The notes under the pieces were generated by a model, which was not told the origin of the DNA, ran no database searches, and was given only the letters and a program-made list of their open reading frames with translations. 64,000 nt of DNA from Cloacibacillus porcorum (GTDB lineage Bacteria > Synergistota > Synergistia > Synergistales > Synergistaceae): assembly GCF_001701045.1 (NCBI RefSeq), contig NZ_CP016757.1, positions 2,320,219 to 2,384,218 of the forward strand, in the 5' to 3' direction. Shown here piece by piece: positions 15,446 to 26,563 of the stretch (within the stretch, counting starts at the first letter, position 1; every line of letters starts with the position of its first letter). Position numbers and translations under genes: made by a program.

Positions 15446-15648
15446 TCCGCTTTCGCCTCCTGTTCGAGCCATGCCTTATGTCCGTCTAGGCATTTCTTCC
15501 CGCCACATTTCCCAGCCGTATAAGCGCATCCGGCGCATTCAAACTCGTCCCACATCCATTTTGCCATTTCATCGAGACTCATGTCTTTGATACGCTCATA
15601 GTTGCTTATTGGCTTAAAGTCCGTAAGTGGTATTAATTCTTCTCTCAT
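15442..15648 (-). CDS. Small Cys-rich phage protein
   Basis: A 68-residue acidic protein. The second half has ECAGCAYTAGKCGGKKC, four Cys in 15 residues, which would bind a metal. The first half is helical (MSLDEMAKWMWDEF). It starts at an ATG overlapping the stop of the previous small gene (ATGA) and ends overlapping the next one, so the three are translationally coupled. Function unknown. Confidence 0.62.
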   Translation of the reverse strand: MREELIPLTDFKPISNYERIKDMSLDEMAKWMWDEFECAGCAYTAGKCGGKKCLDGHKAWLEQEAKAE

Positions 15649-15815
15649 CTGTCCCGTCTCCTTTCATACCTTGTATTCCAGACTTTTATCGCGTGCCCCC
15701 TATCACGGCGCTTTGTGGAGCGCCCGCACTTCGGGCAATATATCTGCGTCCCTCCGATTGTCTCAATCACAGAGATCAAGTCATTATCGCATCGGCAGTT
15801 ACTTATTTCTTCCAT
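15645..15815 (-). CDS. 56-residue zinc-finger phage protein (Lar-like)
   Basis: This short gene starts at the ATG at 15815, with AAAGAGGA upstream, and ends in a TGA that overlaps the next start. The protein has CRC near residue 8, then YCPKCGRS near residue 26, followed by basic residues and KVWNTRY. The CPKCG plus tryptophan-asparagine end is the layout of Lar-type restriction alleviation proteins and related phage zinc fingers. Lar-like function (blunting host type I restriction) is a guess from that resemblance. Confidence 0.6.
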   Translation of the reverse strand: MEEISNCRCDNDLISVIETIGGTQIYCPKCGRSTKRRDRGHAIKVWNTRYERRRDR

Positions 15816-15885: not shown

Positions 15886-16072
15886 CGGGACGGGACAACG
15901 GGATATCTCTAAAGAGATATATCCCGTTTGTCCCGCTCCCTAAAAAGAATGGCGCGACGGGATTTTTTTCGGGACATCGGGACAATTTTTTTATCCCGCT
16001 TGCTAAAAAACGTTGGTATTACTAAGTTTTTTAGACTACTATTTTTCTTCATTTTTTGTCCCGTCTGTCCCG
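15886..16072. other. Cluster of CGGGACA/TGTCCCG motifs, candidate phage origin
   Basis: Six exact copies of CGGGACA or its complement start at 15891, 15929, 15970, 15978, 16057 and 16066, with three CGGGATA variants at 15899, 15920 and 15992 and two more single-base variants. The two last copies lie in the 3' end of the primase gene. Between the motifs are AT-rich tracts. The arrangement resembles iterons at a replication origin next to the gene of its initiator or primase. The gap from 15816 to 16038 holds no convincing gene. Confidence 0.5.
15891..15935. repeat. Large imperfect palindrome within the motif cluster
   Basis: CGGGACAACGGGATATCTCT pairs with a right arm ending at 15935 apart from small bulges, around a loop of about three bases. 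The arms themselves contain four of the CGGGAC/GATA motifs. It could act as a hairpin origin element or as an attenuator for the early operon. Confidence 0.65.
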
Positions 16073-18129
16073 TTGATGTGTTTTTCTCCTTTTAGGTCAA
16101 AATCTTCCAAATCCCGATTCTGTTCACTTTTGCTTATTTTAATTTTCAACTTTTTAACAAAATATCCAAATTCTAGTTCATAATCGCTTGAAAGCATATA
16201 GGTGTCTCCATCGCATATAATTTCTTTTTTTTCTATAAGCTCCTTGCGTATGCGCTGAAAGACCCTTTTTTTTGTATCCTGTTTTGCACTTTCATATTTA
16301 CTGTAAAACGCATTCCGCCAATCATTTTCGCGTACTCCCGCGAAGTTGCCGTATTCGTCAAGTAAGCCGTATGTCTCCGCCGCCTCACGATACGCCTGCA
16401 AGCCTAAGTGTTGCGTTTTGCTTAATGCAGTTATTACCTTTTCGCCTCCGTGCTCATCCGGCTCAAGCACTATCGTAGATACCGCAGCGCCGTCTTCGTC
16501 GAACCATCCGGGCAGATGTACAGGGATTCGCTCAAGATATATCGGGTCGGCAAGCTCACAGTCCTTTTGTTTCACCTGCTCAAGTTTGATGTTATCTCCC
16601 GAAGTGGAAACTAGTATCTGGTTGTCCAACGCGCCGCGCCAAGCCGACGATCCGCGCGCTCGGCCCTTTGCCTCTTGGTTGACGCCGGTATGATGTACGA
16701 GGATCACCGTGCAATCGAAGGTCTGCGATAGCTTGCTGCAGGCGTCAAGCATCGTCTTCGTGTCTGTCGCCTTGTTTTCATCACCAATCAAAAATCGATG
16801 AAGCGTGTCCACGACGATGACCGCAATATCCTGAGCTTCGAGAGCACGGATTTCTGATATCGTTTTCGCGAGCCCTTCGGAGGTGTTGAGGTCACAGGCG
16901 CCACTTGATATCCATGCGTTTAGGTGTTCAACGTTGTGGTACTTCTTCCAGCCTGCAAGTCGGGCTTTAAGTCCGTAATGCCCTTCTCCGGCCAGATAGA
17001 CCACGCCGCCCGGACGCACGCGCAGACCGGCCCACGTATCTATGCCCGCCGCCATGCGCAGTACCCAATCGAGCACGACGAAGGTCTTGCCGGTGCCGCT
17101 GTCTCCGTATACCATCGCCAAGCCGCCAGCCTGTATCCATTTTTTTATGAGCCAGCGGATGGGCGCAGGCTTCGCACAAAAGTCGTCCGCCGCGGTAAGC
17201 CATGTGCTTTTGCCCGTGAGCAGCGCCTTGAGGTCGCCGCCGGCGGTAACGTAGTCGTTCACGTCGCCGATCTCCGGCGGGATTATTACTCTTGCCCCGA
17301 TGAGCGTCGCGGCCTCGTTTGCGGCCGCCTGCCCCGTGCTGCTTTCGTCGTTGTCGCCGACGATCACGATCTCCTGCACAGGGCCGAGCTTTTCGCGCAG
17401 CCATTTTGCCACGGGCGGCAAGTTGCCGGCGTTTAGTGCCATTACCGCGGTCGCGCCTGTGGCTTCGTATATACTGGCGGCGGTCGCGTAGCCCTCGGCG
17501 ACGTATATCGGCCCCTCCTGCGGCGGCAGAGGGCCGAGGGCGAAATATCCACCCTTGACCTCACCTCCGCCGTGGAATTGCTTCTGGCCGTCCGCGGCGA
17601 TGTACTGCGCAGAGGCAATCCGTCCATCCAATATTATCGGGATCATGAGACGTCCGTCGCCGGTCTGATAGATACCGTAGACGCCGACCTGCTTGCGCTG
17701 CAGATATGAATGCCCCGGCTCGGCGGGCGTGACGGTCTGTAAGATGTTCATAACGGCGTTTGCGATCTGTTCGCGGTATTTCCGCCGTTCTTCGTCGCGT
17801 ATGGCCGCGGCTTCCGCCATCCGTCTTTCGCACGCCGCTATCTCTTCCGCCGTGAGTTCTCGCCCCACGTCGGCAAGCCATTTGCTTTCGACGCTGCCGC
17901 GCCAGCTGCCGAACATGCCGGCGGGTATGTTGTCGCCGAAGCCGATATACCAGCCGGCCTTTTCGGTGTTTTTGTCGCCTACGACTGCAAAACGGTGGAT
18001 TTTGCCGTCAAGGGTGACGCGGACAGGCCGCTTCGGCGCGATAGCAGAATTGGCGATGGCGTTTTGTAGCTGCGTTTCTGGCGTGTCGGGCTTTATTTCC
18101 CGGTCCCATCCTGTCGGTAGTGTTGCCAT
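16039..18129 (-). CDS. Phage primase-helicase (TOPRIM + RecA-like RepA helicase)
   Basis: A 696-residue replication protein. Residues about 205 to 290 form a TOPRIM domain (IYVAEGYATAAS, then IVIVGDNDES), the catalytic part of a primase. A RepA-type hexameric helicase/ATPase follows, with Walker A YGDSGTGKTF near residue 340 and Walker B-like AVIVVDTLHRF near residue 440, then HHTG. The C-terminal 120 residues are basic and helical. It should prime and unwind phage DNA. GGAGGAGATG precedes the ATG. The N-terminus lacks the CHC2 zinc finger of host DnaG. Its 3' end carries motifs of the candidate origin. Confidence 0.9.
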   Translation of the reverse strand: MATLPTGWDREIKPDTPETQLQNAIANSAIAPKRPVRVTLDGKIHRFAVVGDKNTEKAGWYIGFGDNIPAGMFGSWRGSVESKWLADVGRELTAEEIAACERRMAEAAAIRDEERRKYREQIANAVMNILQTVTPAEPGHSYLQRKQVGVYGIYQTGDGRLMIPIILDGRIASAQYIAADGQKQFHGGGEVKGGYFALGPLPPQEGPIYVAEGYATAASIYEATGATAVMALNAGNLPPVAKWLREKLGPVQEIVIVGDNDESSTGQAAANEAATLIGARVIIPPEIGDVNDYVTAGGDLKALLTGKSTWLTAADDFCAKPAPIRWLIKKWIQAGGLAMVYGDSGTGKTFVVLDWVLRMAAGIDTWAGLRVRPGGVVYLAGEGHYGLKARLAGWKKYHNVEHLNAWISSGACDLNTSEGLAKTISEIRALEAQDIAVIVVDTLHRFLIGDENKATDTKTMLDACSKLSQTFDCTVILVHHTGVNQEAKGRARGSSAWRGALDNQILVSTSGDNIKLEQVKQKDCELADPIYLERIPVHLPGWFDEDGAAVSTIVLEPDEHGGEKVITALSKTQHLGLQAYREAAETYGLLDEYGNFAGVRENDWRNAFYSKYESAKQDTKKRVFQRIRKELIEKKEIICDGDTYMLSSDYELEFGYFVKKLKIKISKSEQNRDLEDFDLKGEKHINGTDGTKNEEK

Positions 18130-23763: not shown

Positions 23764-24062
23764 TTCGGTAGCTCCTTTCTGCGTGGATGTTCTGTGATCC
23801 ACTTGTCCAAGTCGTCAATGTCATAACGGATTAATTTCTTGCCCCCGTCACCCTTGCCGCCCTCAATTTCCATACTGCGCGGCCCGATGTTCTTGTCTCG
23901 CCAGTTGCGGAGCGTACCGGGCGAAACATCAAGATATTTCGCGGCTTTGTGCTCGTTGAGGAGTCGAGAGGATCTATCTGCTGCATCGTCAAGCTTCTGG
24001 ATTGCCTCCATGAGCACTGAGCGCAGCTCTGCGCAGGTTGTTTCAAATTCAAGCTCTGTCAT
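23760..24062 (-). CDS. HTH (excisionase-like) DNA-binding protein
   Basis: A 100-residue protein whose C-terminal part has a MerR/excisionase type helix-turn-helix: KAAKYLDVSPGTLRNWR followed by a wing with KKLIRYDIDDLDKWI. The N-terminal 40 residues are a helix. The start at 24062 was chosen because the ATG overlaps the TGA of the upstream gene; the open frame extends further but without a site. It could be an excisionase or an early regulator. Confidence 0.75.
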   Translation of the reverse strand: MTELEFETTCAELRSVLMEAIQKLDDAADRSSRLLNEHKAAKYLDVSPGTLRNWRDKNIGPRSMEIEGGKGDGGKKLIRYDIDDLDKWITEHPRRKELPK

Positions 24063-24496
24063 CTTTCCTCTCCTTCCTTGATACGAACTCCCCGCCACTT
24101 GCGTGTAGCGTCGGACTTGTATGAGACAAACATTTTCATCTGGCGAAGCGCGCCACCAACAACATTCTTCGTGGGCGGTGTCAAACCATTGCACATACAC
24201 CAGTCAGAGAAAGAGTCGTAAAGCTCGTGGCAGGTACAGGTAGCTATCTCATCCACTTCGCACCACTCCGAGATAAATTTCTGCAAGTTGTTTCGCAGAT
24301 TTTCATCTTCAAACGGGTTTCGCCTTACGATCGTTGGCGGCTCGTCAAAGGGCAACCCTGCAAGCTCGCAAAAACGCTTCATGATCTCCCTGCGCATTGC
24401 GCTAGACATAGCGCCGCGAAAAGCTACCGCAGCGTCCAGCATCAGCCGCGCTTCTTTGATATCCTCCTCACGCATGTTGTTCAGCATTTCTTCCAT
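24059..24496 (-). CDS. Phage protein with primase C-terminal-like winged helix
   Basis: A 145-residue protein. The N-terminal 45 residues are helical. Residues about 70 to 140 (QKFISEWCEV, then ELYDSFSDWC and a final RKWRGVRI) look like the winged helix found at the C-terminus of P4/D5-type phage primases, which recognises DNA. Here it is a separate protein without the helicase. That resemblance is from memory and moderate. ATG preceded by GAGGAGATAA. Confidence 0.55.
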   Translation of the reverse strand: MEEMLNNMREEDIKEARLMLDAAVAFRGAMSSAMRREIMKRFCELAGLPFDEPPTIVRRNPFEDENLRNNLQKFISEWCEVDEIATCTCHELYDSFSDWCMCNGLTPPTKNVVGGALRQMKMFVSYKSDATRKWRGVRIKEGEER

Positions 24497-26066: not shown

Positions 26067-26115
26067 ATAGCCAATAATATATAAGGTATTCATACTGTTA
26101 AAAAATATTGGCTAT
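26067..26115. promoter_or_regulatory. Divergent operator: inverted ATAGCCAATA / TATTGGCTAT
   Basis: ATAGCCAATA at 26067-26076 recurs inverted as TATTGGCTAT at 26106-26115. The left copy lies just upstream of the lytic -35 box. The right copy lies between the likely -35 and the -10 (TATAAT, 26119-26124) of the repressor gene. This is the expected layout for sites shared by repressor and Cro. Confidence 0.65.
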
Positions 26116-26143
26116 CCATATAATCAAAAAAAGGAGAAATATA

Positions 26144-26563
26144 ATGGAGATTGGAAAAACTATAGCAACTCGCAGAAGAGAGCAAAATATTAGCCAGGAA
26201 CAGTTATCTGAGAAAGCTGATATAAGTCAAGGCTATATCAGCAGTATTGAACGTGGTAAAGAAAAACCATCCATTGAGCTCTTAGAAAAAATCGCTCGAG
26301 CTCTTAATTGCCAGCTTTATATTGACCTGATTCCCAACGGTCAACCATTAACACTGCCAGAACCAATAGTAAGAGAGTCTGCTTATCAGGAAGAACGTCC
26401 AGCAATACCAACATGGGTAACTCTCGAACAGGCAAGCGCAATTACTATCTTTACCATTGCGCTTGAGAAATTACGGCTAGAAAAAAGCTCTTTAACGCCA
26501 GCTGAAATAAAAGTGCTTAATGGGCTAGTTGAAATGTATAGAGAAGAAATAGAACAAAAATAA
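26144..26563 (+). CDS. Prophage repressor, XRE-family HTH
   Basis: A 139-residue regulator. Residues 4 to 60 form an XRE helix-turn-helix (RRREQNISQEQLSEKADIS, then QGYISSIERGKEKPSI). The C-terminal half is helical and lacks the Ser-Lys protease of LexA/CI repressors, so induction would need another route than self-cleavage. The ATG at 26144 has AAGGAG seven bases upstream. It is divergent from the Cro-like gene and likely keeps the lysogenic state. Confidence 0.82.
   Translation: MEIGKTIATRRREQNISQEQLSEKADISQGYISSIERGKEKPSIELLEKIARALNCQLYIDLIPNGQPLTLPEPIVRESAYQEERPAIPTWVTLEQASAITIFTIALEKLRLEKSSLTPAEIKVLNGLVEMYREEIEQK

Follow-up and report, generated by a model that had tools for sequence, protein, structure and literature searches.

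To our knowledge, little has been established about the way in which the replicative primase-helicases of the SF4/RecA type in tailed phages locate their origins. The window analysed here (the whole stretch of DNA, 64 kb in length) poses this question at one place, where a dense cluster of short repeats is located at the end of a prophage primase gene. A sequence-only reading of the window had left two explanations side by side, namely an iteron-type origin and a regulator array. We propose that the array is very probably an iteron-type replication origin of the prophage, whose initiator would be the primase-helicase encoded by the overlapping gene. This degree of confidence applies to the whole statement, including the mechanism; recognition of the iterons by a winged helix is its strongest step (strongly supported by covariation), and the loading of two helicase rings its weakest. 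An origin is favoured over a regulator array because arrays recur at the same place in related phages, their motif covaries with the DNA-binding domain of the primase itself, DnaA boxes flank them, and their hairpins are not terminators.

Structure of the array

Nine exact copies of CGGGA(C/T)A, six of CGGGACA and three of CGGGATA, are present in both orientations between positions 15891 and 16072. Together with a tenth, degenerate copy (CGGGACG, 15886-15892, plus strand), they bear out the original count of at least nine copies in under 190 bases. The density is indeed far above chance: the 187-bp peak contains nine copies, compared with a maximum of three in any 187-bp stretch of 300 Markov shuffles of the window. 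The motif had also been expected to be only sporadic elsewhere, which proved to be the case. Twelve of its 21 occurrences in the window are dispersed outside the array, tandem CGGGAYA pairs occur at five sites genome-wide (four of them within the array), and counts over the window and the genome revealed no second tandem array of the motif in the phage or the host.

As had been described, the array spans the end of the primase gene and the gap that follows. One CGGGACA copy (16066-16072, minus strand) lies within the last codons of the primase-helicase ORF (16039-18129, minus strand), and forms a direct pair with another (16057-16063, minus strand). An AT-rich stretch of 58 bp (15999-16056), a candidate melting region, separates this pair from the remaining iterons; in bins of 40 nt around the stop codon, the AT content is 0.6-0.8. 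These are CGGGATA at 15992-15998 (minus strand), CGGGACA at 15978-15984 and 15970-15976 (both plus strand), and a core in which outer CGGGACA copies (15929-15935, minus strand; 15891-15897, plus strand) enclose inner CGGGATA copies (15920-15926, minus strand; 15899-15905, plus strand). The centre of the core is occupied by a hairpin, ATATCTCTTTAGAGATAT on the gene strand (15903-15920), with the apex CTTTAG. The large palindrome reported at the outset is therefore real; it extends from 15897 to 15928, and its arms (15897-15910 and 15915-15928, 14 bp each) are 93% complementary. Directly beyond the array is a small Cys-rich, Lar-like (zinc-ribbon-like) ORF (15645-15815, minus strand), and a Lar-like small ORF is likewise located behind the arrays of the relatives L002, L006 and L007.

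The primase-helicase and its predicted winged helix

The gene encodes a protein of 696 amino acids, in which Pfam, PHROG, profile and AF2 results distinguish a Toprim domain, an AAA_25 helicase resembling RepA of RSF1010, and a C-terminal winged helix. The Pfam matches are AAA_25 (3e-38, aa 314-485) and Toprim_3 (6e-13; Toprim at aa 208-298), and the protein also matches PHROG DNA primase entries. The sole solved relative detected by profile was the RSF1010 helicase RepA (1g8y; aa 328-508, E 8e-8), and the top Foldseek matches were Twinkle and RepA (1nlf, 1.9e-9), which identifies the helicase part as a RecA-type hexameric helicase related to RepA.

In the AF2 model of the protein (mean pLDDT 85), residues 571-681 (16087-16419, minus strand) form a separate C-terminal domain. 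Its elements (helix 571-587, strand 596-600, helices 601-611 and 617-633, strands 637-640 and 643-646) are arranged as in a winged helix (helix-strand-helix-helix-hairpin). On the strength of this model, of the fold matches of a homologous domain and of covariation, we propose this domain as the iteron binder, with helix 617-633 as its putative recognition helix. The homologous domain of L060, modelled alone, reached a pLDDT of about 97 inside the domain, and its structural matches were mostly winged helices, among them those of linker histones and of ArsR-type repressors, with Z values of up to 6.9; these are matches at the level of the fold and provide no evidence of common descent.

The neighbourhood of the gene is that of a prophage, with genes for tape measure, head, protease, portal and terminase proteins, a Sak4-like annealing protein, a Cas4-like exonuclease and an SSB-like protein. 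The window also contains a gene (24059-24496, minus strand) whose 145-aa product aligns solely with late or C-terminal portions of several PHROG DNA primases, which gives the impression that a domain from a different type of primase had become a free-standing gene.

Arrays in related phages

The sequence-only reading had made conservation in sister prophages a point to be checked, and the answer is divided: the layout is conserved and the literal motif is not. A sister with 84% identity (L002/L006) lacks a CGGGACA array and has ACCGTCG/CGACGGT around GCTACTCTTTAGAGTAGC at the equivalent place. For this reason, motifs were searched for de novo. In a 71% relative (L007), GCGTGAA surrounds ATATCCTTTAGGATAT, and in the distant L009 (about 35% identity in the matched part) CGGGACA appears again, in about ten copies around CCCCTATAGGGG. 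The window and L009 share both CGGGACA and an FQRxR helix, whereas the 84% sister has a different helix and a different motif. Arrays were also found in the phages CGphi29 (GGGGACA), 1N2-2 (CGGTACA) and PB15 (TGGTTCA).

Eight scans of viral contigs and one of genome contigs yielded several hundred loci; the first rounds alone comprised 350 primase ORFs and 194 unique 3' regions. The count of the best 6-mer behind the gene was centred on about 8 and rose to 16, in comparison with 3-4 in coding sequence. With a motif dictionary and shuffles, a significant array was detected at the same place in 157 of the 177 full-length relatives. The arrays represent about 24 motif classes, each lineage having its own 6-7-mer. 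A detectable array was lacking in about 20 of the 177, part of which constitute one clade. Neither an array nor a hairpin was observed at the usual place in the L165-L195 clade (winged helix ALIEHGEKNGLIGTKSKTWRN), whose origin may be located elsewhere. The distant relative L142 carries a long perfect inverted repeat, TGTCCGGTTTGTCCGGTTTATAT / ATATAAACCGGACAAACCGGACA, behind the gene.

Covariation of the motif with the winged helix

The covariation analysis was performed on 82 deduplicated proteins and 666 columns (L119 numbering). The eight columns that carry the most information about the motif (residues 636, 628, 635, 641, 634, 625, 621 and 638) are all located in the winged helix, with z values of 4.5-8.4 relative to columns of equal entropy. 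In a mapping by hand onto the L060 model, the majority are found where helix 80-86 ends, in the loop that follows or in the turn that precedes it.

Near-identical primases that differ in a few winged-helix residues have motifs that differ at one base. This is seen in L086 (SAKQYIKPSSP, GGTAAC) and L066 (SAKVYIKPSAT, GGGAAC), with 97.8% core identity, and in L099 (KPGST, CGTACC) and L085 (KPGYP, CGGACC), with 95.8%. At a core identity of at least 85%, residue 635 differs in 66% of the pairs whose motifs differ and in 1% of those whose motif is shared.

The associations between residues and bases are given here for the first data set, on which the residue classes had also been chosen (a point that the held-out test addresses only partly). 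Residue 634 is K or R with G (50 of 53 cases) and D or A with C (16/16); residue 635 is Q, L or M with T (26/26) and V, N or T with G (36/39). At residue 638, K, R or Q accompanies A (60/61), N accompanies T (11/11) and S mostly G (7/8). At residue 636, Y mostly accompanies AC, K accompanies CC, M accompanies CA and D mostly GC. When the winged helix was excluded from the tree, the independent pairs that have different bases at position 3 numbered 13; the class of residue 635 was concordant in 11 of them and opposite in none (p 0.001), and the other bases provided too few independent pairs for significance. The motif label changes 44 times on the core tree, compared with 29 times on the winged-helix tree.

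With rules fixed beforehand, the full hexamer was predicted correctly for 10 of 16 held-out loci with unseen C-terminal ends. The successes include loci whose winged helix is only 57-68% identical to that of any training row; two of the failures were loci without an array, and others were partly right. These results indicate that the residue-to-base code is real but partial. An attempt to apply the clade-B code to the window was rejected, as the aligned residues K, Q, D and K would give GGTAGC, which is not the window's motif. The helix differs in length in the clade of the window, and we therefore do not claim that code for it.

Specificity may also change as a block. The DNA identity between L094 and L090 is about 96% as far as about 280 nt ahead of the stop codon; it drops to 25-65% from -222 to +169 and recovers beyond that, mostly to 67-100% and then to 95-100%. 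The primase cores are 99% identical, and the winged helix and the array have been replaced together in a block of ~400 bp. L182 and L158 show the same pattern at the upstream border.

The central hairpin and other candidate origin signals

A hairpin with a CTTTAG-kind apex is present in 120 of the 157 arrays (0.7 expected from shuffles, none in the coding control). Its centre is located at a median of 120 nt beyond the stop codon, and 118 of the 120 are flanked by inverted iterons. The conserved core of the family consists of iterons around a hairpin and is often GC-rich. The apex is exactly CTTTAG in 77 hairpins and never CTAAAG on that strand, which makes it strand-asymmetric. In a comparison of 39 distinct hairpins, Watson-Crick pairing amounts to 85-100% at stem pairs 1-6, each of which is represented by two to four types of pair; for pairs 1-3, the pairing is partly guaranteed by the selection of hairpins with at least three pairs. 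Compared across the family in this way, the hairpin is a structure-conserved, sequence-variable element and, as argued below, no terminator.

Iteron arrays (GCGAACA, GCTGACAG, GCGGACA) were also observed directly behind the genes of unrelated primase-helicases with Toprim and VapE-like (PF05272) domains from the same host family, i.e. L377 (G000:C1:741500-747000) and L378-L381. Despite these arrays, the CTTTAG hairpin was absent behind the VapE-type primases of this host family.

Perfect DnaA boxes (TTATCCACA) number 142 in 57 of 150 array regions, which, the loci being related, is no count of independent events; the controls gave 0.5 (shuffles), 1 (coding control) and at most 5 (scrambled 9-mers). 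The boxes lie immediately to either side of the array in several motif classes, and the array of the window contains none. Across the family, the AT content is weakly raised (about 0.54 vs 0.46). The GC-skew switch that the sequence-only reading had named as a check at this point did not appear within the window; for an integrated prophage, this is weak evidence either way. In the literature searched, we found no binding or replication experiment on this family and no description of its origins.

Proposed mechanism and alternative explanations

According to the mechanism that we propose, the C-terminal winged helix would bind the 6-7-bp iterons, several of which form inverted pairs astride the CTTTAG-apex hairpin. 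Binding would gather the RepA-like ring helicase at the core, where AT-rich DNA would be opened or the hairpin extruded, and two opposed helicases loaded. Priming of both strands would fall to the fused Toprim domain and might take place at the apex of the hairpin or close to it, and DnaA may assist in some hosts through the flanking DnaA boxes. Iterons and winged-helix residues would match like lock and key throughout their evolution, which would proceed through point substitutions as well as swaps of the ~400-bp cassette; as a result, related phages sharing a cell would not fire each other's origins. A broader generalization is plausible rather than probable. It describes a large family of tailed phages whose origin specificity resides in an exchangeable cassette made up of winged helix, iterons and CTTTAG hairpin, with a nearly digital residue-to-base code; the cassette would be switched by point mutation or recombination for orthogonality to co-resident phages and satellites, and the RepA-like helicase ring would use the fused domain to load at a duplex origin by itself, without a separate loader.

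Covariation speaks for recognition and not for the start of synthesis, and the winged helix might therefore bind the array to control copy number or incompatibility, or to regulate its own gene, with the true origin elsewhere. Bacteriophage P4, in which iterons are present in both ori and crr, offers a precedent for copy control. We nevertheless consider this improbable, given that a second tandem array is absent from both phage and host, that DnaA boxes flank the array in more than a third of the loci, and that the array lies downstream of the gene, where a promoter scan of the window detected nothing above chance. That the array is the operator of a separate phage regulator is very improbable. 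The repeats are operator-like in occurring in both orientations, and a cI-like regulator is encoded at 26108-26563; however, the array lies behind a gene and not ahead of a promoter, and its motif tracks the winged-helix residues of the primase and is exchanged along with that domain, which strongly disfavours the operator and with it the regulator half of the earlier alternative.

The last two explanations are barely credible. The conserved palindrome about 120 nt past the stop codon could suggest a transcription terminator or an RNA hairpin between the primase and the next genes, but a T-run follows only 1 of the 120 hairpins, the window stretch has no terminator-like site, and the iterons would be left unexplained; as the main role of the locus, termination is refuted by these observations. 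A packaging (pac/cos) site or integration-related repeats might be considered in view of the terminase gene about 2.5 kb away, yet the covariation is with the primase, and the array is found directly behind the primase in other phages too.

If the array is an origin, as we favour, then sequence alone reveals a domain of the protein together with its DNA sites, a hairpin that is conserved and a partial code linking residues to bases, which provides directly testable candidate origins for hundreds of uncultured phages. The fast divergence at the end of the primase gene would be explained as a specificity switch, and the existence of a natural set of mutually orthogonal replicons is suggested.

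Comparison with known systems

In the Rep-ori systems of SaPI/PICI and in Cch2 of SCCmec, the origin is located directly 3' of the initiator gene and contains multiple short element-specific iterons (PMC6092414, PMC7581432), and the C-terminal domain of Cch2 binds sites behind its own gene (PMC7581432). The position immediately 3' of rep recurs here, as does, by prediction, the use of the C-terminal domain of the helicase as iteron binder. However, those systems employ D5/SF3 or DUF927 helicases with AEP primases, whereas a RecA-type, RepA-like helicase is combined here with Toprim. The iterons of those systems flank an AT-rich region, in contrast to the core described here, which is a CTTTAG hairpin between inverted iterons (the window having an AT-rich gap besides).

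P4 alpha, pRN1 and RSF1010 have been compared in PMC4234260. In P4 alpha, a single protein unites primase, helicase and an iteron-binding C-terminal winged helix (PMC4234260). The primase-helicase of the window is similar in carrying a C-terminal winged helix (here a predicted fold), but the helicase of P4 alpha belongs to SF3 and that of the window has the SF4-like AAA_25/RSF1010 RepA fold; moreover, P4 possesses crr as a second iteron site, whereas only one array was found in the window and the genome. RSF1010 is related through its helicase, the homologous RepA (1g8y), and resembles the window in having iterons and hairpins (in RSF1010, ssiA/B for the primase). It differs in using three separate proteins (RepA, RepB' and RepC), of which RepC binds the iterons; here, one polypeptide includes a Toprim primase, and a fused winged helix, which the motif tracks, takes the place of RepC. 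ORF904 of pRN1 and phage BIP-1 share with the window a C-terminal winged helix and, behind the replication gene, a stem-loop whose sequence varies, but have an AEP primase, an SF3 helicase and no iterons (PMC4234260).

The closest parallel to lock-and-key divergence is offered by the geminiviruses, in which close relatives carry different iterons, each set fitting the Rep of its own virus (PMC12548392); that Rep is a rolling-circle protein of plant ssDNA viruses, unrelated in protein and mechanism. Judged by its domains and DNA sites, the family represented by the window acts like P4 alpha, SaPI/PICI Rep and Cch2, yet belongs to none of these systems, since it unites an SF4/RepA-type helicase, a Toprim primase and a winged helix in one fused protein.
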